This document shows, piece by piece, positions 1,930 through 61,907 of a DNA stretch of 64,000 nt. The notes under the pieces are model-generated. The model did no database searches, was not told where the DNA came from, and saw only the letters and a list, made by a program, of their open reading frames with translations. The DNA comes from an uncultured Clostridia bacterium. GTDB taxonomy: Bacteria; Bacillota; Clostridia; Oscillospirales; Ruminococcaceae. Position numbers and translations under genes: made by a program. The number at the start of each line of letters is the position of its first letter. Position 1 is the stretch's first letter. The stretch lies in NCBI GenBank assembly GCA_947630845.1, contig CANRJB010000002.1, positions 1-64,000 on the forward strand, read 5' to 3'.

Positions 1930-2005
1930 GCCGCTTGCAGCAGGAGATCATATTTATCATAGTATCACACGGGAATATGTTTTTTATATGCCGTGCATCC
2001 ACAAT

Positions 2006-2036
2006 AATGCCCCTTGCCGTCAGACGGCAGGGGGCA
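2006..2036 (-). terminator. Terminator hairpin at the end of the FHA-ABC/kinase operon
   Basis: On the minus strand ATGCCCCCTGCCGT pairs with CGGCAAGGGGCAT around a four-base loop, with one bulge. The downstream U tract is poor (TATTG), but it is the only strong hairpin after the stop at 2053. Confidence 0.55.
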
Positions 2037-2052
2037 TCACATACTTCCTGTC

Positions 2053-2562
2053 TTACAGACCGGCAGCATCAGCCGGAAGATCGGCTTTCCATGCATACTG
2101 GATGTACCAGCTTTCCCCGATCCTGATCAGGTGGACATCATAAAATTGCTGTCCCTCGCTGCCGGAAAAACAGATCGTCACAACCGCTGTCGTCTCATCT
2201 TCCTTCACTGACAGAATGTCCGGATGAAATTCAGGGAGCTGCTCCGTTCCGGAATGCTCCAGAAACGGAAGTGTCTTTTTCAGCAGCGACATGAGGGCAC
2301 TGTCCGACACACCCTCTATCTTCTCCAGTCCCTTCCGTATCAGCTCCGCTTCAGACGGCTCGATATACCGGAGCATTCCGTCAATGTCTCTCTCATTCAG
2401 TTCGGTGATGAATGCTTCTACCGCTGCCTGCGGCTGACTCTCCTGCTCCTTATGTTCCTTCTGGTACAGAAGGAACACCAGTATCCCTGCCAGACAGAGT
2501 ATCAGCAGCATCAGGATCACGATCAGCACGACAAGCGTTCTGATGGCTCGTTTTTGCTTCAT
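2053..2562 (-). CDS. Hypothetical single-pass membrane protein, last gene of the kinase operon
   Basis: I do not recognise a family. The 169-residue protein has a short basic N-terminus (MKQKRAIR), one strong membrane helix (about residues 10-33) and an extracytoplasmic region. That region has a helical part (AVEAFITELNERD) and a beta-rich end that resembles small NTF2-like or DUF4878-type lipoprotein domains; this is a weak impression. The start at 2562 is chosen over the longer frame to 2622 because CAGGAG lies eight bases before it. It follows the SH3b gene by 56 bp and so probably belongs to the same operon. Its membrane topology matches the kinase and SH3b protein, which suggests an extracellular role. 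Confidence 0.75.
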   Translation of the reverse strand: MKQKRAIRTLVVLIVILMLLILCLAGILVFLLYQKEHKEQESQPQAAVEAFITELNERDIDGMLRYIEPSEAELIRKGLEKIEGVSDSALMSLLKKTLPFLEHSGTEQLPEFHPDILSVKEDETTAVVTICFSGSEGQQFYDVHLIRIGESWYIQYAWKADLPADAAGL

Positions 2563-2618
2563 GGCTCTCACTCCTGTGCCTGTATCAACAGGCGATGATG
2601 GCATTCGCCGGTGTTCCG

Positions 2619-4163
2619 TCATCCCTCATTCTCATAGAAGGTGAGGAAATTGCTGTCAACCCATCCGTAATAATCGCCGTCATCTGCATCATAAATCTCA
2701 TACCATTCAATGCCCATAGAGTAACAATAGGCAGTTGCCATGATATGCCATCCATCTTCCAGATCTTCCCGGACCGTTTCCTTCTCACCATGCTCACAGA
2801 CATAAGAAGTCGCAAAGCCTGCAACGCCGTTGCCTTCGATCTCTCCGTAAAGCTCCGAATCAAGATTGTAAGCGATGATCTCTTCTGCCTCTGTCTCAAC
2901 CGGGGGCTTACCGATGGTGATCATCTTATTGCTCACCCAGCCGCTTCCGTTGTCATAGACGATATAGTACCAGTACCCCTCAAAGTGCGTTGCTGTGAAC
3001 ACATCACCCTCACTCAGGGTATCAACGATGTTGCTGTCGTCTGACCTGTCGGGGCTGCACCGGACATTGCATATCTCATTGGAGACATAGCCCTCCTTTG
3101 GTGTGATGATATCGGGGGATTTTCCGGGCTTGACCATCTTATAGCTGATATAGCCGCTGCGCCCCGGATAATTGATATGATACCAGTAGCCGTCAAAGCT
3201 GTCGATCGTAAAGATCGTGCCTTCATAGAGGGTATCAATGATGTTGGAATCGGACACTTTGGATCTGGAGCTTCTGACATGGCATGATTTCACAGATACA
3301 TAGCCCTCTTTTGCATCATAATAACTCTCATCCGGCTTCGGGGGAACGCCGAGCGTGATGCTGCTGACCGAAACATAGCCCTGCACATCATAGCCGCTGC
3401 CGCCCTCCACTGTGATGTAATAAAACGAATTGCAGATGCCCAGTATGGTGACAGCATCATCCTCGTACAGCTTAAATGCCTCTCCACGGGAAGTACCGGT
3501 CGAAGCCTCCTTGTACATGTCGGTCGATTCTGCGGAACAGTAGCCGCTTTTCACCTCCCGGTATGCCATATACTCCGGATAGGAGGAGGGAATGGCAATG
3601 CCGTTGCTGTCATACTGGATCGTAATGACTTCCGGGAGCGTTTCTGCGGGGATGGTCACTTCTTCCGGCATGGTTTCCGGAACGACGACCTCCATGTTGA
3701 CTGTGCCGTCCAGTGTAAAGACGACATCCGTTACCCTGATATACCCTTCGATGTCGCCGTACCGGACATGGTACCAGTTTCCGTCCAGCTCATAGATCTC
3801 GATTCTTTCGCCGGAATACAGATATGCCACTGCGCTCGAACCATCGCTTGCCTCTGCATGCAGCACAACATATTCCAGATCTCCGCTGTCAACAAAGCCG
3901 CTTGATGCGTTGATGAAGCTATCCTCTTCTTTTTCAGAGGGAACCAAGAGCTTTACCACGACCAGCACGATCAGCACGACCATTGCAATCAGGCATATTA
4001 CTGCCGCTATGATTCCGATGATCAGTCCTGTATGCTTTCCGGACGGCGGTGTGGGCGGCGGTGCAGAAGGCTGCCCCGAAGGTTCAGCATAGGCATCTTC
4101 GCCGGCGTAGACCGTCTGGTCGTTATCTGTATAGATCTGTGTCTCCCGGTATCGTTCGTCCAT
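2619..4163 (-). CDS. Membrane-anchored protein with about five SH3b-like repeats
   Basis: The 514-residue protein has a cytoplasmic Pro-rich N-terminus (about 1-45), one membrane helix (about 46-75), then about five extracellular modules of bacterial SH3 type. The third and fourth repeats are most alike: both have EGYVS at the start, a NI(I/V)DTL core and GYWY. SH3b domains usually bind peptidoglycan or wall peptides. The first repeat contains LDGNWYHVRYGDIEGYI, almost identical to the SH3b domain of the neighbouring kinase. ATG 4163 has GGGAGG eight bases upstream and is preferred to the in-frame start at 4187. The gene sits 20 bp after the kinase gene. It could be a co-receptor, a substrate or a wall anchor for the kinase. 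Confidence 0.85.
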   Translation of the reverse strand: MDERYRETQIYTDNDQTVYAGEDAYAEPSGQPSAPPPTPPSGKHTGLIIGIIAAVICLIAMVVLIVLVVVKLLVPSEKEEDSFINASSGFVDSGDLEYVVLHAEASDGSSAVAYLYSGERIEIYELDGNWYHVRYGDIEGYIRVTDVVFTLDGTVNMEVVVPETMPEEVTIPAETLPEVITIQYDSNGIAIPSSYPEYMAYREVKSGYCSAESTDMYKEASTGTSRGEAFKLYEDDAVTILGICNSFYYITVEGGSGYDVQGYVSVSSITLGVPPKPDESYYDAKEGYVSVKSCHVRSSRSKVSDSNIIDTLYEGTIFTIDSFDGYWYHINYPGRSGYISYKMVKPGKSPDIITPKEGYVSNEICNVRCSPDRSDDSNIVDTLSEGDVFTATHFEGYWYYIVYDNGSGWVSNKMITIGKPPVETEAEEIIAYNLDSELYGEIEGNGVAGFATSYVCEHGEKETVREDLEDGWHIMATAYCYSMGIEWYEIYDADDGDYYGWVDSNFLTFYENEG

Positions 4164-4183
4164 TGTGTTTCCTCCCATCACTA

Positions 4184-6205
4184 TCACTCAGGGATCTGCA
4201 TAATGAATCCCATATTGCTTGATTTGTACTGATCGTAGCCCGAAACATCCGGAACGTCGTTCATCGTCCATTCCGAGCTTGTGCCGCCCTGCGAGGACAT
4301 GTTCCAGAGAAGCAGATACGGCTCACGGATCAGTGTTCCGTTCTTCTGATATTCATAGGCATCATAACCCGACGGTTCCCATACGTCAATCCGGGAGTTA
4401 TAATACCAGTGATCTTTTGCACTCATAATAAACTGTGTCTCTGAACCGTCCACCCATGAGAACGAGATCTCCATGGTTTCGTCGTTCAGCTCAGACTGTG
4501 CGCCAAGCCAGAGGTATTTCAATTCTGTCTGTTTTTTCTTTGCCTCATTGACAGTACTGATGATCGCATTCCAGTCCTCCTCAGAATGGATTGTTGCCAG
4601 ATGACCGCCATGCTCCTCACTGTACTGTTCTGCCTCATCCCATGTATACTTTCCACCGACAAATATGTAGATATAGTGTTCCGGCTCTGTCTCCGCAACT
4701 TCCGGTACATTCTCCGGTGCTTCCGCTTCCTCCGGCGCAAATTCGACATCACCTGCCTTGACATAGCCCTCGATGTCGCCGTACCGGACATGATACCAGT
4801 TTCCGTCGAGTGCATAGATGCCGATGCTCTCTCCGGGATTCAGCCGTGCAAGTACGGTAGAACCCTCATCCGCTCCGGAATACAGGGGAACATATTCCGC
4901 ACCATTGCTGCTGATGTAGCCGCTCGTCGTCTGCAAAGCCGTACTTTCCGTCTCTGCTGCGGAGGATACGGAAGACTCTTCCGTTTCGCCGCTCTTCATG
5001 AACCATAGCACCCAGACCAGCACACCACATGCCACAAGCATCAGCAGGATCAGGATCGGTATCAGAACATACAGATACCCACCTTTCTTCTGTGCAGCCG
5101 ATGCCTGACGGGGAGCAGGAGCAGGGGCTGGACGAGGGGCAGGACGGGATGCAGGAGAGGGAGCAGGACGGGATGCAGGACGAGGAGCAGGGCGGGGGGG
5201 CTGACTGACGTGCTGTCTTGGAATCGGTTCTTCCTCAGCATAGACAGTCCTGCCCGGATCGGCTGCCGGATGCATGGGTGCAGACTGTCCTGACCGGAGT
5301 GCCCGCAGCTCTTTCAGCATATCCTCCATCGAGGCATAACGGTCTGCCGGACGGTAGGCGCATGCTTTCAGAATAATCCGTCCGAAACGCTGCGATGCAT
5401 TCCGGGGCGGCGGAAAGGGTGTACCCTGTCTGCGCTTCTCATAGGCAATATCCTCCGTCACATCCACACTCTCCAGCGGAAAATATCCGTCATTCATGAT
5501 CTGGTACAGCACGATGCCGAAAGAATAAATGTCAGCCTGTATGGTATAGCTCTCGTTCGGGTCAGACTTTGCACTGAAAATTTCCGGTGCCATATAACTG
5601 GGGCTGCCTGCCACGGAACGTGCATTGCCGCCTCGTTTGGAGACATTGAAGTCGCCGAGCTTATAGACACCTTCCTTTGAAACGAACAGATTATCGGGCT
5701 TGACATCCCGGTGAATGATGCCGTGACGGTGCGCATACTGCAATGCCTGTCCGATATCACAGGCAAGCTGTAACACATTGTTCTCTGCATACGAGAATGT
5801 TCCGTTGTGCATCTGCGCCGTCAGAGGTGTCAGCAGCTCCATGCTGATAAGGTGGTAGTACCCCTCCACATTCTCCTCTGTAATAAACTGCTCCTGCTTC
5901 TCGTCATAGTAACGCACGATATTGGGACAGCCGTCAAGCTTCTTCATAATGACAGACTCATTGGCTGCCATGTTCCTCTGGTTCTCAAGATAGCTCTTCT
6001 TTTCTTCCGGTGTCCGGAAAGGTCGGTCTGCCACAATGGCACTGATTTTCAGTGCCCGTTCATCTACCGTACTCGTGTGTGCCTCCACACGGTGAATCGT
6101 ACTGAACGATCCGGAACCGATTTTCTCCTTGATGTACCAGTTTTCCCAGATCGGCTGCCGTATCTGCGGCAGGATACATTTTTCTATCAGATCATGAATT
6201 TCCAT
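4184..6205 (-). CDS. Receptor-like Ser/Thr protein kinase with SH3b and C-type-lectin-like ectodomains
   Basis: About 673 residues. The cytoplasmic kinase domain (about 22-290) has a Gly loop (GSGSFS), Lys in ALKIS, the catalytic loop HRDVKPDN and APE. The DFG motif is changed to DFN (GDFNVSK). A Pro-Ala-Arg-rich linker follows, then a membrane helix, an SH3b domain and a C-terminal domain of C-type lectin type (WDEAEQYSEEHGGHLATI, WLGA). Bacterial kinases of this build sense the wall outside and phosphorylate inside. The gene overlaps the end of the PP2C gene by 14 bp, so the two are probably translated together. I chose ATG 6205; ATGs at 6211 and 6238 are also in frame, and the purine-rich AGGAAGGGG precedes 6205 most suitably. 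Confidence 0.9.
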   Translation of the reverse strand: MEIHDLIEKCILPQIRQPIWENWYIKEKIGSGSFSTIHRVEAHTSTVDERALKISAIVADRPFRTPEEKKSYLENQRNMAANESVIMKKLDGCPNIVRYYDEKQEQFITEENVEGYYHLISMELLTPLTAQMHNGTFSYAENNVLQLACDIGQALQYAHRHGIIHRDVKPDNLFVSKEGVYKLGDFNVSKRGGNARSVAGSPSYMAPEIFSAKSDPNESYTIQADIYSFGIVLYQIMNDGYFPLESVDVTEDIAYEKRRQGTPFPPPRNASQRFGRIILKACAYRPADRYASMEDMLKELRALRSGQSAPMHPAADPGRTVYAEEEPIPRQHVSQPPRPAPRPASRPAPSPASRPAPRPAPAPAPRQASAAQKKGGYLYVLIPILILLMLVACGVLVWVLWFMKSGETEESSVSSAAETESTALQTTSGYISSNGAEYVPLYSGADEGSTVLARLNPGESIGIYALDGNWYHVRYGDIEGYVKAGDVEFAPEEAEAPENVPEVAETEPEHYIYIFVGGKYTWDEAEQYSEEHGGHLATIHSEEDWNAIISTVNEAKKKQTELKYLWLGAQSELNDETMEISFSWVDGSETQFIMSAKDHWYYNSRIDVWEPSGYDAYEYQKNGTLIREPYLLLWNMSSQGGTSSEWTMNDVPDVSGYDQYKSSNMGFIMQIPE

Positions 6206-7043
6206 AGCCATCCCCTTCCTGTACAGAATGCAGCACAATGCATGTCACATTGTCCTCGCCGCCATTTTCCAATGCCCGTCCGACAAGTGCCTTTGCCGGA
6301 GACTCCTGCTCCGTCTGCAAAATTCCGGCAATCTCCTCATCGGTACACATATCCGTCAGACCATCGCTGCAAAGCAGCAGCATCCCATCTTTCAGCGGAA
6401 ACGGCACAGCAGCGGCTGCCTTCAGTCCTGTTCCTCTGGTATCCACTCCGAGAAACGAGGTGATCTTGTGGGCATCCGGGCTATGTTTCGCTTCCTCCTC
6501 CGTATAGATATTGGCTTTGAGCTTTTTCATGGCAAGTGTCTGGTCCTCTGTGATCTGCCGCAGCTCGCCTGCATGGTAGTAATACACCCGGCTGTCGCCG
6601 ATGTGAAAAACAGATACCATTCCCTGTGCAACGGATACCATTGCAAGCGTGCTGCCGCTGATTCTGCAATGTTCCCGGAATGCCATCTCGCAGATCTGAT
6701 GATTTGCTTCCGTCACATACCGCTCTGTCCATGCTGTCACGTCTGTTTTCTCTGTCAGCTCCTGCCGGCAGGTCTTCATGACGGAAACGGCAAGCCGGGA
6801 TGCCTCCCTGCCGAGACTCTCTCCGCCCATACCGTCACATACCGCACATAAACACTGTGTCTGTTTCAGCTCTGTCTGCCAGAAGCCGCTTTCTTCCTCT
6901 GTATTGCCGATGCCGTCAGCATAGAAGCTGTCCTCATTGCGCTGGCGCACTCTTCCGGGGTCTGTCGCAGCGAATATCCTGAACCGCATCGGCTGTTCAC
7001 TTTTCTTCTCCGGATGGGAAAAGAATTGCAATAATCTGTTCAT
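6192..7043 (-). CDS. PP2C-family Ser/Thr protein phosphatase
   Basis: The 283-residue protein carries the PP2C metal-binding and core motifs in order: RNEDSFY near residue 36, CDGMGGES near 70, GDSRVYY, LLCSDGLTD and GGEDNVT near the end. These residues hold two divalent metals and hydrolyse phospho-Ser/Thr. It is soluble, without membrane segments, and of usual length for PrpC/Stp-type enzymes. Its gene lies between the permease (10-bp gap) and the kinase (overlap), which makes it the obvious partner reversing the kinase, and probably acting on the FHA-ABC protein as well. AAGGGGGACGGG precedes the ATG. Confidence 0.95.
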   Translation of the reverse strand: MNRLLQFFSHPEKKSEQPMRFRIFAATDPGRVRQRNEDSFYADGIGNTEEESGFWQTELKQTQCLCAVCDGMGGESLGREASRLAVSVMKTCRQELTEKTDVTAWTERYVTEANHQICEMAFREHCRISGSTLAMVSVAQGMVSVFHIGDSRVYYYHAGELRQITEDQTLAMKKLKANIYTEEEAKHSPDAHKITSFLGVDTRGTGLKAAAAVPFPLKDGMLLLCSDGLTDMCTDEEIAGILQTEQESPAKALVGRALENGGEDNVTCIVLHSVQEGDGYGNS

Positions 7044-7053
7044 CCCGTCCCCC

Positions 7054-7887
7054 TTATGACCCTCTGTTCCGGATTTTCAGACTGATAATGGCAATCAGGA
7101 TGCATACCAATCCGATCAGCATCATACATCCCCATGCGCCCATCAGATTTTCCGTCGTCGCCTCATAGGCTGCTTCGCTCTCAAGCCGGGTCACCTGCGG
7201 AAACACCAGACTCATTTTCAGGGGCAGGCTCTCACTGTTCAGATCGCCGATGCTGCCCAGTGCTGACATTCCCCACTTGCTGAATGTGATGTTGGCAATA
7301 TGCTCTGCCGCACCCTTCAGCTCAAACAGCACGCCGCTCATGACAAGCTGGAGAATCAGGACAAAGGGCATTGCTGTCATGGCAACATTCGGTGTCGATG
7401 CCACGGAGGAGATCATGATGCCCATGATATCCGAACCCCATACCACCAGAAACAGCGTCACGAAATATTCCGGCAATGCATGATCGGAAAGGATGCCCTT
7501 CTCCGGAAAATCAATGAACCAGACACAGATCCCGAGCAGGATGATCGTCTGAATCAGACACAGGAAAAAGTCAAAGATGACATGTGACAGGATATAGGAA
7601 CTCAGATGCAGTCCTGTGCGGTATTCACTCGTGATGGTGTCGTGTTCCTTGCAGATGCGCTGGATGGAATTGAAGATGCCGATCCAGATCGCTGCGGATA
7701 TGATCGCAAAGAAACCGGATTTGGTCGCCTCATAGGTGGTGAACATATCCTCTCCGACAATCGAACACACCAACAGGGAAATGACGGCTGCAATGATAAT
7801 GAATTTCCAGTCCTTCTGATTTCTGAAAAGCCGGAAATTCTTGCCGATGTAGACCGGAATCTGTCTGATCGCCTGTATGATCCCCAT
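7054..7887 (-). CDS. ABC-2 type transporter permease partnered with the FHA-ABC ATPase
   Basis: The 277-residue protein has six hydrophobic segments and the ABC-2 (ABCG-like) layout: a basic N-terminus (RNFRLFRNQKDWK-like elbow), a first helix near residue 30, a cytoplasmic stretch (RICKEHDTITSEY), and a large extracellular loop before the last helix. It would form the membrane channel for the ATPase encoded just upstream. ATG 7887 has AGGAGAGG upstream and overlaps the ATPase stop region, implying translational coupling. The longer form from TTG 7893 is less likely. The substrate is unknown; relatives export lipids, polysaccharides or drugs. Confidence 0.88.
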   Translation of the reverse strand: MGIIQAIRQIPVYIGKNFRLFRNQKDWKFIIIAAVISLLVCSIVGEDMFTTYEATKSGFFAIISAAIWIGIFNSIQRICKEHDTITSEYRTGLHLSSYILSHVIFDFFLCLIQTIILLGICVWFIDFPEKGILSDHALPEYFVTLFLVVWGSDIMGIMISSVASTPNVAMTAMPFVLILQLVMSGVLFELKGAAEHIANITFSKWGMSALGSIGDLNSESLPLKMSLVFPQVTRLESEAAYEATTENLMGAWGCMMLIGLVCILIAIISLKIRNRGS

Positions 7888-7889
7888 GC

Positions 7890-9527
7890 TCAACCTCTCC
7901 TTGTCTGTTCAAACTTCTCGATAAATTCGTCTCCTCTGCCCTTGCCGCCTTCATAGTTGATCTCCATGACGATCTCACTGAGACGCTTTACGCCGAAGAA
8001 TGACAGCGCATTCTCCACATCTCCGTAAAAGGCAAGGTGTCCTGCATCATCCTTCCTGCTCTTGGCAAGCACGATGACTTTCTTGTACATATGTGCCACA
8101 TCATCCGGATAATGCGAGATCATCAGCCCTGCGTTGCCGATCTCGGAGCAGGGGCGCAGCTGCATAGAGTTGTCCACGGACTCTTCTTTTGTGATCGGCT
8201 TGATGAGCTGTTTCATCTGATCGACTCTGCCGGCAACATCCAGACCGGAATCCGGTTCGTCATAGGTAAAGAAGCTGATGTCACCGACTGCATGGATGGC
8301 GACCTGCACTCTCTTGCGCTGTCCGCCGCTGATAACGCCGAGCATACTGTCACGGATCTGGGTGAGTGTCATGCTCTCAATGACATCTTCCACACGCTGC
8401 TCGATCTCCTTGAGGCTGTACTCTCCGGCAAGTTTTGTCCTTGCGGCATCCATGATGGTATGGTAGACGGTGTCCTGCATACGGTAGTCGGCATACTGCG
8501 GCACGATACCGATCTTATGCTTGAGCATCCGCAGATTCCGGTACAGATCCATGCCGTCCAGAAAAATCTCCCCACGGATATCCAGTATCTGTTCCGAAGA
8601 ACGCTGCTGACCGGTGATGGCTTTGATGAAGGTGGATTTTCCGGCACCTGCCCCACCGAGAATCAGTGTAAAGTCGCCTGACTCGATGTCGAGACTGATG
8701 TCTTTCAGGAGTGTCTTTTTCTTGGTAAAAACGCCCGGTCTGCGTGCGATGACCTCGTCGATATTGACACGCATCACCACAGAACGCTTGTTGTAGTCAA
8801 ATCCGGCTCTGCTGTGGAGATCAGATGACACATTGTTGAAGATGACCTCATTTCCGAGAAAGATGAGCGTGGTATTGGCGATCCGGATCACATCAAACGG
8901 ATGCAGGAGGTACTCCTTTGTCACGATCTCACCATTGACGGCAAGACCATTCTGACTGTGCTGATCTTCGATCTTCCAGCCCGCTCCGGTTCTCTGCAGG
9001 ACGGCATGATTTCTGGACACCATAAAATCCGACAGGGAAATGCCTTCGCCGCAGTTTCTCCCGACAGGTACACGCTGCATCCCATTCAGGGGAAACCGTG
9101 TCCATTTCTCATCCGGCAGAAAGGCAGTGCTGAAGATCATCTCGACCGCATCCGGATGTGGTTTGTCGAGTGTGACACGGTCGATCCGCAGCACATCGCC
9201 GTCATGCAGCGGTACTGCCTTGGTTCCCTTTTCATTGTAGGGCATCAGTTTTGCACCGTTATAGTAGGTTCCGTTCATGCTGTTGTTGTCTCTGTAATAA
9301 TAAACACCGTCCAGATAGATGAGTTCACCATGATTTCTTCCTGCGATGCCGGAAGTCAGTTTGATGTCATTGCAGTATCCCGGTGCATCCCGTCCGATGC
9401 GCATATCTCCGTTCAGCTGCACGACACGCACTTCTTTCCCATTCTCCAGAATGAGCATGGTTGCCGGCTTTGGCGGAGCAGGCGCATAGTACACGGTTTT
9501 GTTATTTTCAGCGGCAGTTCCGTTCAT
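7890..9527 (-). CDS. ABC transporter ATPase with two N-terminal FHA domains (Rv1747-like, split)
   Basis: The 545-residue protein has two forkhead-associated domains (about 25-120 and 125-215). Each has the expected GR, S..(R)NH and N-G signatures: RIGRD, AGRNH, NSMNG; VGRNC, VSRNH, HSQNG. The ABC ATPase follows (about 250-500) with Walker A GGAGAGKST, signature ISGGQRKR and Walker B FFTYDEPDSGLD. FHA domains bind phosphothreonine, so activity or assembly is probably set by the kinase and phosphatase of the same operon. Known parallel: mycobacterial Rv1747, a two-FHA ABC exporter next to kinase PknF. Here the permease is a separate gene. This is the first gene of the operon, with its own consensus promoter. 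Confidence 0.92.
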   Translation of the reverse strand: MNGTAAENNKTVYYAPAPPKPATMLILENGKEVRVVQLNGDMRIGRDAPGYCNDIKLTSGIAGRNHGELIYLDGVYYYRDNNSMNGTYYNGAKLMPYNEKGTKAVPLHDGDVLRIDRVTLDKPHPDAVEMIFSTAFLPDEKWTRFPLNGMQRVPVGRNCGEGISLSDFMVSRNHAVLQRTGAGWKIEDQHSQNGLAVNGEIVTKEYLLHPFDVIRIANTTLIFLGNEVIFNNVSSDLHSRAGFDYNKRSVVMRVNIDEVIARRPGVFTKKKTLLKDISLDIESGDFTLILGGAGAGKSTFIKAITGQQRSSEQILDIRGEIFLDGMDLYRNLRMLKHKIGIVPQYADYRMQDTVYHTIMDAARTKLAGEYSLKEIEQRVEDVIESMTLTQIRDSMLGVISGGQRKRVQVAIHAVGDISFFTYDEPDSGLDVAGRVDQMKQLIKPITKEESVDNSMQLRPCSEIGNAGLMISHYPDDVAHMYKKVIVLAKSRKDDAGHLAFYGDVENALSFFGVKRLSEIVMEINYEGGKGRGDEFIEKFEQTRRG

Positions 9528-9627: not shown

Positions 9628-9656
9628 ATTATAGCACAATTCCCCCCTGATTGCAA
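9628..9656 (-). promoter_or_regulatory. Sigma-A promoter of the FHA-ABC/kinase operon
   Basis: On the minus strand TTGCAA (9656-9651), a 17-bp spacer and TATAAT (9633-9628) with an extended TGC just before the -10. It leaves a leader of about 95 bases before ATG 9527. Confidence 0.8.
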
Positions 9657-59967: not shown

Positions 59968-60050
59968 AGTAAGGTAAAGAGTATGGAGAAAGAGGTCAGG
60001 AAATGACACATTTCCTGAAGCAAAATATCAAAAAGAAAGGAGTCAGCCCC

Positions 60051-61907
60051 ATGGGAGAAAAAAGGATGTGCTACGGCTGTATGGAACGGATACCCGAAGA
60101 AAGTACCGTCTGCCCGATCTGCGGCTATCATGAATCGACCCCGACGGACAGGAACTATCTTACACCCGGCACTCTTCTCAATAACCGCTATATTGTCGGC
60201 ATTCTGCTGAATCATAACAGCGAAGGGGCTACCTATATCGGCTATAACCAGTCTATCAACTGTAAAGTCCTCATCCGGGAATATATGCCCACCGTGTTCT
60301 GCTCCCGTGTGAGAGGGAAAGCTACCATCAGCGTCAATCCGCAGCAGCTTGTACAGTATAAGGCACTGATGGCAGATTTTACGGAACTGAACAAAAACCT
60401 TGCCCAGATGCGCAGTGCCGCACTCATCAATCCGACACTCGATCTTTTCTCCGAAAATAATACGACCTATGCCATCTCTGAATATATCGAAGGTGTCAAG
60501 CTCGTGGATTACCTCAAAGACAATGCCGGCGAGCTGACATGGAATCAGGTATCCACCATGTTCCCCCCCTTCTTTACCACACTGAGCCTTGTCCACAATA
60601 ACAACATCATCCACCGTGCCATCAGCCCGGAGACGATCTATGTCACGGAAAAAGGGGAGATGAAGCTCTGTGGTTTCTGCATCCCGACCGTCCGCACGGT
60701 ACATACCGATCTGCCGTGTGAGATGTTTCATGGCTATGCCGCACCGGAGCAGTACAGCCCCAGTACCCGGCAGGGTACATGGACAGATGTTTACGGCATC
60801 TGTGCCGTGCTGTACCGCATTCTGACCGGATGCAAGCCGACCGATGCCCCGAGCCGGATGCAGAATGACAATCTCTGCGCACCGCATGAGATGAATCCGA
60901 ATATTCCGAAGCATGTTTCCCGTGTCATCATGAAGGGCATGAGCCTGTTTTCCGAAGACCGCATCCAGACGGTCACGGAGCTTGTCACACAGCTTTTCGA
61001 GCAGGAGAACGATGCAGCACCAAAGCCCGTCCCACAGGAACCCACACGCCGTCAGCAGCAGTCAAAACAGCAGCGTCATCCTGAACCGGAGCATCGCCGT
61101 TCTCCCCAGAAAGAGACATTCCATACACGGGAAGATTATGTGGTGCAGAGCCATGAAAACGTCATCGACCGCATCAAGATCCCGATCATTATCACTGTTT
61201 TGCTTGTCTGCGTCGTGCTGGTCATTATCATCGTTGCGATCAATCTGTTCGGTATGAATACACTGCCGGCTGAGCAGAGCCAGATCGAGACGGTCATGAC
61301 ACAGCCGCCCTACGAGACGAATAATATTGTACTTGAATCCGAAGTAGAAACGACCGAACCCACTGCGGACAGCCAGATGCCCGATCTGGTCGGCAAGAAT
61401 TACGAGACCAAGAAAGAACTGCTCGAACAGGACGGATGGCTGTATCTTGAAGCGGAATATGATTTCAGTGATGAATACAAGGCAGGCTTGATCATAGAAC
61501 AGGAGCTTGCACCGGGTACACCTTTCCAGAGCGGCACGACTGTGAAGGTCGTCGTCAGCAAAGGACCGTCGTCTATTGTGCTGCCGGATTTCGAGGGCTT
61601 GACCCTGTCGGAGTACGAAGCAAAGCTTGACGAGTTAGGGCTGACTGCCCACAACAGCGAAGCCGTGGTGAATTACGATTATAAAAACGGCTATGTTGTC
61701 TCCCTGAGCCACGAAGTCGGAGAGAAGTTTGACATGACCGGTTCAGAGACACTCAAGATCTATTATGCCAACAATCCCGAACCGACAAGCAGTCCGGAAC
61801 CGATCAACACAACTCCTGCTGAAGAAAGCTATGGCGGCGAAGAGCCAAATGTGGACATCCCGCCGGAGGAATCCATTGAACCGCCTCCTGCACCCATGCC
61901 TGAGTAA
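60051..61907 (+). CDS. Zinc-ribbon, membrane-anchored PASTA protein kinase homologue, probably a pseudokinase
   Basis: The 618-residue protein has an N-terminal zinc ribbon (C7, C10, C21, C24), a kinase-like domain (about 40-320), a charged linker and a membrane helix (about 380-405). Two PASTA domains follow (about 440-580; MPDLVGKNYETKK, LPDFEGLTLSEYEAK), then a Pro/Glu-rich tail. Key kinase residues are lost: the catalytic loop reads HRAISPETI (HRD Asp to Ala), DFG is GFC (in LCGFCIP), and the Gly loop is degenerate. APE-type (AAPEQY) and helical-lobe features remain. PASTA domains usually bind muropeptides or beta-lactams. ATG 60051 follows AAAGGAG by nine bases. It is transcribed alone. 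Confidence 0.9.
   Translation: MGEKRMCYGCMERIPEESTVCPICGYHESTPTDRNYLTPGTLLNNRYIVGILLNHNSEGATYIGYNQSINCKVLIREYMPTVFCSRVRGKATISVNPQQLVQYKALMADFTELNKNLAQMRSAALINPTLDLFSENNTTYAISEYIEGVKLVDYLKDNAGELTWNQVSTMFPPFFTTLSLVHNNNIIHRAISPETIYVTEKGEMKLCGFCIPTVRTVHTDLPCEMFHGYAAPEQYSPSTRQGTWTDVYGICAVLYRILTGCKPTDAPSRMQNDNLCAPHEMNPNIPKHVSRVIMKGMSLFSEDRIQTVTELVTQLFEQENDAAPKPVPQEPTRRQQQSKQQRHPEPEHRRSPQKETFHTREDYVVQSHENVIDRIKIPIIITVLLVCVVLVIIIVAINLFGMNTLPAEQSQIETVMTQPPYETNNIVLESEVETTEPTADSQMPDLVGKNYETKKELLEQDGWLYLEAEYDFSDEYKAGLIIEQELAPGTPFQSGTTVKVVVSKGPSSIVLPDFEGLTLSEYEAKLDELGLTAHNSEAVVNYDYKNGYVVSLSHEVGEKFDMTGSETLKIYYANNPEPTSSPEPINTTPAEESYGGEEPNVDIPPEESIEPPPAPMPE

Follow-up and report, generated by a model that had tools for sequence, protein, structure and literature searches.

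A Clostridial operon in which a receptor-like kinase may control a two-FHA, ABCG-type transporter

What is a receptor-like protein kinase doing in one operon with an ATP-binding cassette (ABC) transporter and a protein phosphatase? The question is raised by a locus in a stretch of 64,000 nucleotides (nt) from an uncultured Clostridia bacterium of the family Ruminococcaceae (GCA_947630845.1, contig CANRJB010000002.1, positions 1-64,000), which as a whole is called the window here. On its minus strand, from 9527 to 2053, six closely spaced open reading frames (ORFs) lie in one orientation; a preliminary description of this DNA had listed six packed same-strand genes, and ORF calls together with Pfam matches confirm them. 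The answer that we consider about evenly balanced between right and wrong is that they form a receptor-kinase-controlled, ABCG-type transporter module, wired by phosphorylated protein tails which dock on the second FHA domain of the ATPase. The sequence itself shows the six genes, with an ATPase and a phosphatase whose motifs are intact. It also shows a kinase that crosses the membrane once and has an ectodomain of the wall or glycan type, a pair of FHA domains on the ATPase, and the repeated association of such ATPases with kinases and phosphatases; the direction of control, the phosphosites, the docking and the transport are what we infer. The gene order is as follows:

7890..9527, minus strand: FHA-FHA-ABCG-type ATPase, 545 amino acids (aa); ORF, Pfam and structure model
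7054..7893, minus strand: ABC-2 permease, 279 aa, six predicted transmembrane (TM) segments; Pfam ABC2_membrane, 3.6e-17
6192..7043, minus strand: PP2C phosphatase, 283 aa; Pfam PP2C_2, 2.7e-12
4184..6205, minus strand: one-pass Hanks-type kinase, 684 aa; ATG at 6205 preferred, TTG at 6238 also open
2619..4163, minus strand: SH3b-repeat membrane protein, 522 aa as ORF, the proposed co-receptor; ATG at 4163 preferred, GTG at 4187 also open
2053..2622, minus strand: DUF4878-like membrane protein, 189 aa, one TM segment; near-threshold match (6e-5, 23.8 bits against a cut-off of 24.1), with a homologue in locus L019

Three domains are recognised within the ATPase:

9183..9401, minus strand: FHA1, in which Gly replaces the Ser of SRxH; alignment
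8880..9065, minus strand: FHA2, with the canonical GR..SRNH..NG retained; alignment
8250..8708, minus strand: ABC_tran match with Walker A, signature and Walker B intact; Pfam and motifs

Pfam finds FHA in two stretches of this protein (4.9e-25), which bears out the two FHA domains claimed for it earlier, followed by ABC_tran (3.5e-21). The core residues of FHA domains are GR, SxxH and NG. Walker A, ISGGQ, the DE of Walker B and the H-loop can all be read by eye. By sequence and by modelled fold the ATP-binding part is of the ABCG type; the structure comparison returned this part alone, and its rows barely cover the FHA domains. Residues 1-19 form an N-terminal tail with predicted local distance difference test (pLDDT) values below 50 in the model, and are thus predicted to be disordered. 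An insert of about 20 residues in the ATP-binding domain (residues ~444-464, low model confidence) is common, among seven aligned homologues, only to the closest relative, a locus of the same genus (G139). For the permease, a PDB sequence search at 0.01 gave no match.

The phosphatase shows the PP2C motifs RxxNED, DGMGG, SDG and DN by eye, and its best NCBIfam match is NF033484 (Stp1/IreP; 173 bits, under the cut-off of 230). The kinase matches Pkinase (3.9e-35), SH3_3 (1.1e-7) and Lectin_C (2e-6, 63 of 107 profile positions), and its HRD is present (HRDVKPDN). Against the NCBIfam PASTA-kinase model NF033483 it scores 134.4 bits, and the cut-off of 450 is not reached; Pfam finds no PASTA domain in it, with SH3_3 and Lectin_C there instead. 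A separate PASTA kinase, adjoining another PP2C-like ORF, is encoded elsewhere in the same genome. The window also encodes, at 60003-61907 on the plus strand, a kinase-like protein with two PASTA stretches, HRA for HRD and CGFC at the DFG position, probably a PASTA pseudokinase. The SH3b protein matches SH3_3 in three stretches (2.9e-24), and a 194-nt repeat connects it with the kinase:

4731..4924, minus strand: one of the two copies of the 194-nt direct repeat, coding for SH3b in the kinase ectodomain
3709..3902, minus strand: second copy of the repeat, in the SH3b gene, 71% identical to the kinase copy
4433..4651, minus strand: partial C-type-lectin match in the kinase ectodomain; Pfam

At the protein level the common SH3b is 57% identical over 58 aa, and this duplication suggests that the same ligand is bound by both proteins. 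The SH3b protein had been thought to be either a co-receptor or cargo-related. A co-receptor fits it better, because it has a membrane anchor, the SH3b common to the kinase and the same TVY motif (see below), whereas a relation to cargo is unlikely.

How regularly do such genes occur together? A protein search at 1e-40 gave a match in 8 of 197 genomes of the family, five of them reaching into the FHA part, and in 4 of 38 within the genus. With a profile, matches were obtained in 17 of 394 genomes of the order, 18 of 391 of the class (four starting after FHA1) and 3 of 398 of the phylum (one without the FHA part). As only some candidates per genome were scored (two in the order, class and phylum searches), these counts are lower bounds; the distribution is patchy. 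Those of the nearest relatives that bear a name are bins of uncultured Clostridiales and of Ruminococcus, for the most part RUG records, which we take to be rumen bins. ORFs around the fetched homologues were annotated with profiles from the window domains. Across 59 Bacillota FHA-ABC loci (those of Actinomycetota and Pseudomonadota stand outside this number, and L098, a duplicate of L056, was left out), a kinase lies within six genes in 37, a PP2C in 31, either of them in 42 and both in 26. Among 21 FHA-less ABCG-type homologues, a kinase is nearby in one and a PP2C in none (Fisher 7e-8 against 42/59); these controls include L075, perhaps a degenerate FHA-ABC, L079, a Spirochaetales metagenome-assembled genome, and L200, an IMG/VR contig. 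A stricter count, with ATPases thinned at 60% identity (L168, a duplicate of L082, left out) and neighbours taken from the same strand within three genes, gives 21/36 versus 1/20 (Fisher 6e-5). The neighbourhood search suggested in the preliminary description therefore finds kinase or phosphatase genes recurring with FHA-ABC genes across Bacillota, and this association goes with the FHA domains, because only 1 of 21 FHA-less homologues has it. The FHA-less homologues L025, L026, L027, L064 and L165-L167 have additional TM segments at the N terminus and a permease encoded by a gene of its own, with no kinase or PP2C neighbours.

That the association tracks the FHA domains speaks against a shared neighbourhood without direct phospho-gating, in which the kinase and phosphatase would govern wall genes and the transporter would merely be co-expressed. 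Wall-related accessory genes would fit such an arrangement, namely an M15-family peptidase in G139 and, weakly, a YkuD match below cut-off in L059; L058 has a glycerophosphodiesterase with Big_2. The surface-related character of these genes is not decisive, and we give co-expression alone little credit.

How could the kinase act on the transporter? A candidate for the connection is the tripeptide TVY, which is found in three tails:

9489..9497, minus strand: TVY as part of KTVYY, a candidate phosphosite, in the disordered ATPase N-tail
5240..5248, minus strand: TVY in the juxtamembrane tail of the kinase (GRTVYAEEE)
4107..4115, minus strand: TVY as part of QTVYAGED, in the SH3b-protein tail that is predicted to be cytosolic

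It occurs six times in the 19,558 residues of the 53 window ORFs, three times in these three cytosolic tails, and was spotted post hoc; a fourth copy lies within the ATP-binding domain of the operon ATPase. In the mechanism that we propose, the SH3b/lectin ectodomain would bind a ligand, the SH3b co-receptor assisting, and the kinase would thereby be activated. It would then phosphorylate the Thr of TVY in its own juxtamembrane tail, in the co-receptor tail and in the N-tail of the ATPase. FHA2 would read these marks, so that ATPase, kinase and co-receptor would be gathered at the membrane, and the ATPase N-tail may also bind its own FHA2 in an intramolecular switch similar to that of OdhI/GarA. 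PP2C would remove the marks, and the output would be control of the permease. The cargo, if one may guess from mycobacterial Rv1747 and from the sensor type, might be a wall or lipid-linked component.

Kinase-tail repeats are found elsewhere too (five N-x-T-[AE]-Y copies in G139; DKTTSVRRAP and DKTTAVRKAP in L048), and a generalised motif, [DEN]xT[VTAIEM]x[VIAYFLM], was fixed before being tested on new loci. Within the defining set it is carried by 18 of the 38 ATPase tails and by as many of the 28 kinase tails, a level that 0/5000 shuffles reached. Only one of 18 control kinases has it; these are the ones with usable tails among the loci tried, L031 included, and PASTA was confirmed only for the one from the window's own genome. 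Two further order-level loci gave a positive result in both tails (L198), and a negative ATPase tail with an unusable kinase tail (L199). The new class-level kinase tails were weakly positive, with three motifs in 2 of 6 sequences (shuffles: 22/5000 by motif count, 167/5000 by sequences). A looser pattern, T-x-x-[YF], was rejected: it occurs in 17/38 ATPase tails (0/5000 shuffles) and in 4/10 new ones (126/5000), and had been picked after viewing both sets. In the window's own genome (L030, C38), a soluble kinase ending in DDTVYMDSS lies beside a PP2C and near an FHA match. Several of the top PF00069 matches of the genus, which served as control kinases (e.g. L031, L171, L173, L176, L178, L187), carry TQYF in their juxtamembrane tails, and this motif might allow a different FHA protein to dock.

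Several results weigh against a receptor-kinase-controlled transporter or against its wiring through the tails. The motif was defined where it is strongest, on mutually related sequences, and in the new, more distant class-level ATPase tails it failed (1/8, equalled by 1047/5000 shuffles). Accessory membrane-protein tails have it in 6 of 44 cases (shuffled mean 1.74; 22/3000 shuffles reach this number), an enrichment which we do not claim because the reading frames of several among these six seem doubtful. FHA1 has Gly at a position where relatives carry Ser, and the kinase has DFN instead of the usual DFG, likewise in G139. The kinase/phosphatase and ABC genes are conserved together on the whole, but 17 of the 59 FHA-ABC loci lack both a kinase and a PP2C in their vicinity. 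In G139, finally, the order is ATPase-PP2C-kinase, and a scan of 45.7 kb of its 49.7-kb contig revealed no permease; the label of an exporter, as used in the preliminary description, thus needs correction.

The results on the motif can be read in another way, namely that phospho-control is true and TVY is not its wiring. Kinase and FHA would then meet at other sites, such as the activation loop or the FHA surface, and the motif would be due to chance or would serve other partners. Not only the failure of a motif fixed in advance and the lack of clear enrichment in accessory tails agree with this, but also several FHA-ABC proteins that start directly with FHA1 and are almost tail-less. On the other hand, the three TVY copies of the window fall in its three tails, no shuffle matched the defining set, control kinases are nearly devoid of the motif and kinase tails of new loci still show it weakly, so we find this explanation unlikely. 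Because the signal in the defining set is strong and the class-level ATPase test failed, the motif is probably real in the order to which the window belongs, and no general feature outside that order.

The gene set of G139 points to a different alternative, in which the ABC part would be a sensor or scaffold and the kinase the output, the ATPase either reporting the transport state or acting as an FHA scaffold. Flux sensing of the BceAB type offers a comparison, and the large, varied ectodomains of the kinases, which could have further targets, would suit it as well. In most other FHA-ABC loci, however, a permease match is within the ATPase gene or adjoins it, and the ATPase motifs are intact; we therefore regard this alternative as distinctly unlikely.

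What could these kinases sense? In 26 kinases scanned of 51 kinase rows, the ectodomain differs almost from locus to locus. It is SH3b with lectin in the window, discoidin-like in L018 and L077, a leucine-rich repeat (LRR) in L022 and L055, a BspA-type LRR with PASTA in L054, PASTA in L059, PASTA with SH3b in L067, RCC1 in L074, Big_2 with lectin in L058 and DUF6273 in L050. NPCBM was found in seven kinases, mostly with TPR-like matches (L051 below cut-off), TPR in L048 (L024 below cut-off), SH3b and DUF2963 in two kinases of L089, a pectate-lyase-like adhesive domain in L056 and a marginal lipocalin in L053, while the profile scan recognised no ectodomain in the kinases of L020 and L085. A common ectodomain of kinase and accessory protein was considered as a rule and rejected, as it is seen in only 3 of 33 loci (window, L058, L059). 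In a kinase tree of 36 rows (L097 and L099 omitted), the window kinase groups with those of G139, L060, L061 and L158 (98/96), loci in which the ATPase is always of the split kind. A different kinase type is present in L067, even though its ATPase is close to that of the window; the kinases thus seem partly co-inherited and partly exchanged. Tentatively, and with more doubt than conviction, we suggest that the operon belongs to a patchy gut-Clostridia family of plug-in receptor modules. A cytosolic core (FHA-FHA-ABCG ATPase, PP2C and kinase domain) would be combined with swappable sensors, and a phosphothreonine code, carried by the tails of kinase, co-receptor and transporter and read by FHA2, would assemble a phosphatase-reversible receptor-transporter complex.

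Is the operon then a version of Rv1747-PknF? According to the passages cited, Rv1747 is an ABCG protein (PMC3908365) that is phosphorylated by PknF and whose condensates are reversed by PstP (PMC9312465, PMC3908365); its disordered inter-FHA linker is part of a phosphorylation-dependent condensing module (PMC9312465), and export of phosphatidylinositol mannoside (PIM) glycolipids has been proposed (PMC5549992). In both, a single polypeptide carries a pair of FHA domains N-terminal to an ABCG-type ATP-binding domain, and the operon includes a kinase gene; the phospho-control of an exporter, as proposed there (PMC3908365, PMC9312465), is a further resemblance. In contrast to Rv1747-PknF, the window operon has a PP2C, an SH3b/lectin ectodomain and a candidate SH3b co-receptor, and its permease is a separate 279-aa protein, whereas it is fused in the Mycobacterium loci. 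The gap between FHA1 and FHA2 is one residue in the window versus 89-136 in five proteins of four Mycobacterium loci. More broadly, it is at most 7 residues in 54/54 Bacillota two-FHA proteins and 74-136 in eight actinobacterial ones (in five Bacillota-locus proteins, L071, L073, L151, L159 and L160, profiles recognised only one FHA); judged from these sequences, the long linker is an actinobacterial feature within the compared set. In a midpoint-rooted ATPase tree of 65 rows (L023, L151, L098 and L200 omitted), the window groups with G139 (100/100), then with L065-L067 (99/91) and L019 (97/88), in a clade of 22 rows, 21 split and one fused (95/88). The Mycobacterium and Streptomycetaceae proteins are placed in a 39-row fused clade (100/97) with many Clostridia, and four split rows fall on that side. 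The earlier idea of a split Firmicutes counterpart of Rv1747 thus stands as far as architecture is concerned, but a simple splitting-off of the permease does not agree with a different clade and the lack of a long linker. Since the linker is absent and the ATPase clade distinct, the regulatory solution appears to differ from that of Rv1747, although the principle is alike.

Other known systems resemble the operon in part. PknB/PrkC/StkP with Stp/PrpC likewise combine a one-pass Hanks-type kinase with an adjoining PP2C gene; unlike in these PASTA-kinase systems, the window kinase is devoid of PASTA and sits in a transporter operon. As far as the cited passages go, StkP has known Thr sites in its juxtamembrane region (PMC12077195), and FhaA docks on the juxtamembrane tail of PknB when that tail is phosphorylated (cited in PMC12077195). 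The OdhI/GarA switch, with Thr14 of OdhI as the N-terminal switch residue, is similar in having, in an N-terminal tail before FHA, a Thr whose phosphorylation by a kinase is undone by a phosphatase (PMC9769921), but in the window the switch would act on an ABC ATPase. In PpkA-PppA-Fha of type VI secretion, too, a kinase, a PP2C and an FHA protein govern an export machine (PMC3953482, PMC6213207); here, in contrast, an ABC transporter is the presumed output, and among the genes of the operon Pfam finds none of a secretion system. That kinase, phosphatase and FHA genes cluster (PMC1262709), that an FHA-ABC is controlled by a kinase (PMC3908365) and that the ectodomains of bacterial kinases vary (PMC12077195, PMC1262709) was already known, to judge from the same sources. 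In the open-access literature we found no description of such a Clostridial operon. What looks new against that literature is a split form which lacks the linker and comes with a candidate co-receptor, together with ectodomains that are exchanged around a single FHA-ABC core and the common tail motif. The earlier statement that no described system with this exact gene set is known agrees with what we found there, and among the loci examined the exact six-gene set occurs in the window only.

As to the layout of the operon, PP2C and kinase overlap by 14 nt with the preferred kinase ATG at 6205, and the SH3b and DUF genes by 4 nt. Of the two overlaps claimed earlier, that of phosphatase and kinase is thus present, whereas that of ATPase and permease (4 nt) exists only if the TTG start at 7893 is used; ATG at 7887 leaves a 2-nt gap. 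The spacing is 10 nt between permease and PP2C and 20 nt between kinase and SH3b gene (ATG at 4163). Two possible signals flank the genes:

9628..9656, minus strand: promoter-like site upstream of the first gene, TTGCAA-17-TATAAT with TG
2004..2040, minus strand: hairpin 3' of the last gene, possible terminator

The promoter assigned to 9628-9656 in the preliminary description exists as a site, but such matches are frequent in the window (21 found versus 13.1 ± 4.0 in shuffles). The hairpin stretch gives -29.3 kcal/mol for 66 nt folded, and its T run is weak.

Could the genes belong to a defence or conflict system, or to a mobile element? The best PADLOC match of the kinase is mad6 (1.4e-53), accompanied by many PD-T4-6 kinases, and the ATPase matches mad3 (1.4e-14) and mad8 (4.2e-8). 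These matches, however, are confined to the kinase and ATP-binding domains, the permease, PP2C, SH3b and DUF genes have no PADLOC match at 1e-5, and the score with the NCBIfam MAD6 model, 100.7 bits, stays below its cut-off of 460; a role in defence is therefore highly improbable. A mobile or phage origin was rejected: a single-protein search gave no relative on viral contigs, the best of 14 viral contigs reached by the profile (L200) covers the ATP-binding part only, plasmid matches are at most 33.5% identical, and the GC content is 0.50-0.53 versus 0.52 for the window.

In L019 (4784-5723), WXG100 proteins are encoded directly 3' of an FHA-ABC/permease/DUF/PP2C operon, and the kinase-like gene is degenerate (302 aa). 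A link to type VII secretion was considered and abandoned: of the loci searched, L019 and L063 alone gave a match, and phmmer found no match to type VII secretion genes (EssC, WXG100) at 1e-4 in the window. The window's own genome has a type VIIb-like locus (L029, C11, 4401-17055) with an FHA-bearing FtsK/EssC-like protein, WXG100, DUF6382-FHA, PP2C and a kinase, which makes a second kinase/PP2C/FHA set in this genome, around an export machine. In L028 (C30, 5467-8589) of the same genome, an FHA protein, an FtsW/RodA protein and a further one-TM protein follow in a row, presumably resembling the mycobacterial FhaB-RodA-PbpA order, the third protein by position only.

The operon is a self-contained split version of an FHA-bearing ABC transporter with its own phosphatase, a candidate co-receptor and candidate phosphosites, and laboratory hosts could be used to rebuild it. 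Should the tail code be true, a single phosphopeptide-binding experiment would test its wiring, and the ectodomain swaps across relatives would permit domain exchange to find ligands. The operon bears on how FHA-bearing ABC transporters, Rv1747 included, are switched and on what they move. If the plug-in reading is true, this lineage, met here mostly in rumen and gut bins, would possess a bacterial counterpart of receptor-like kinases whose direct effector is a membrane pump.

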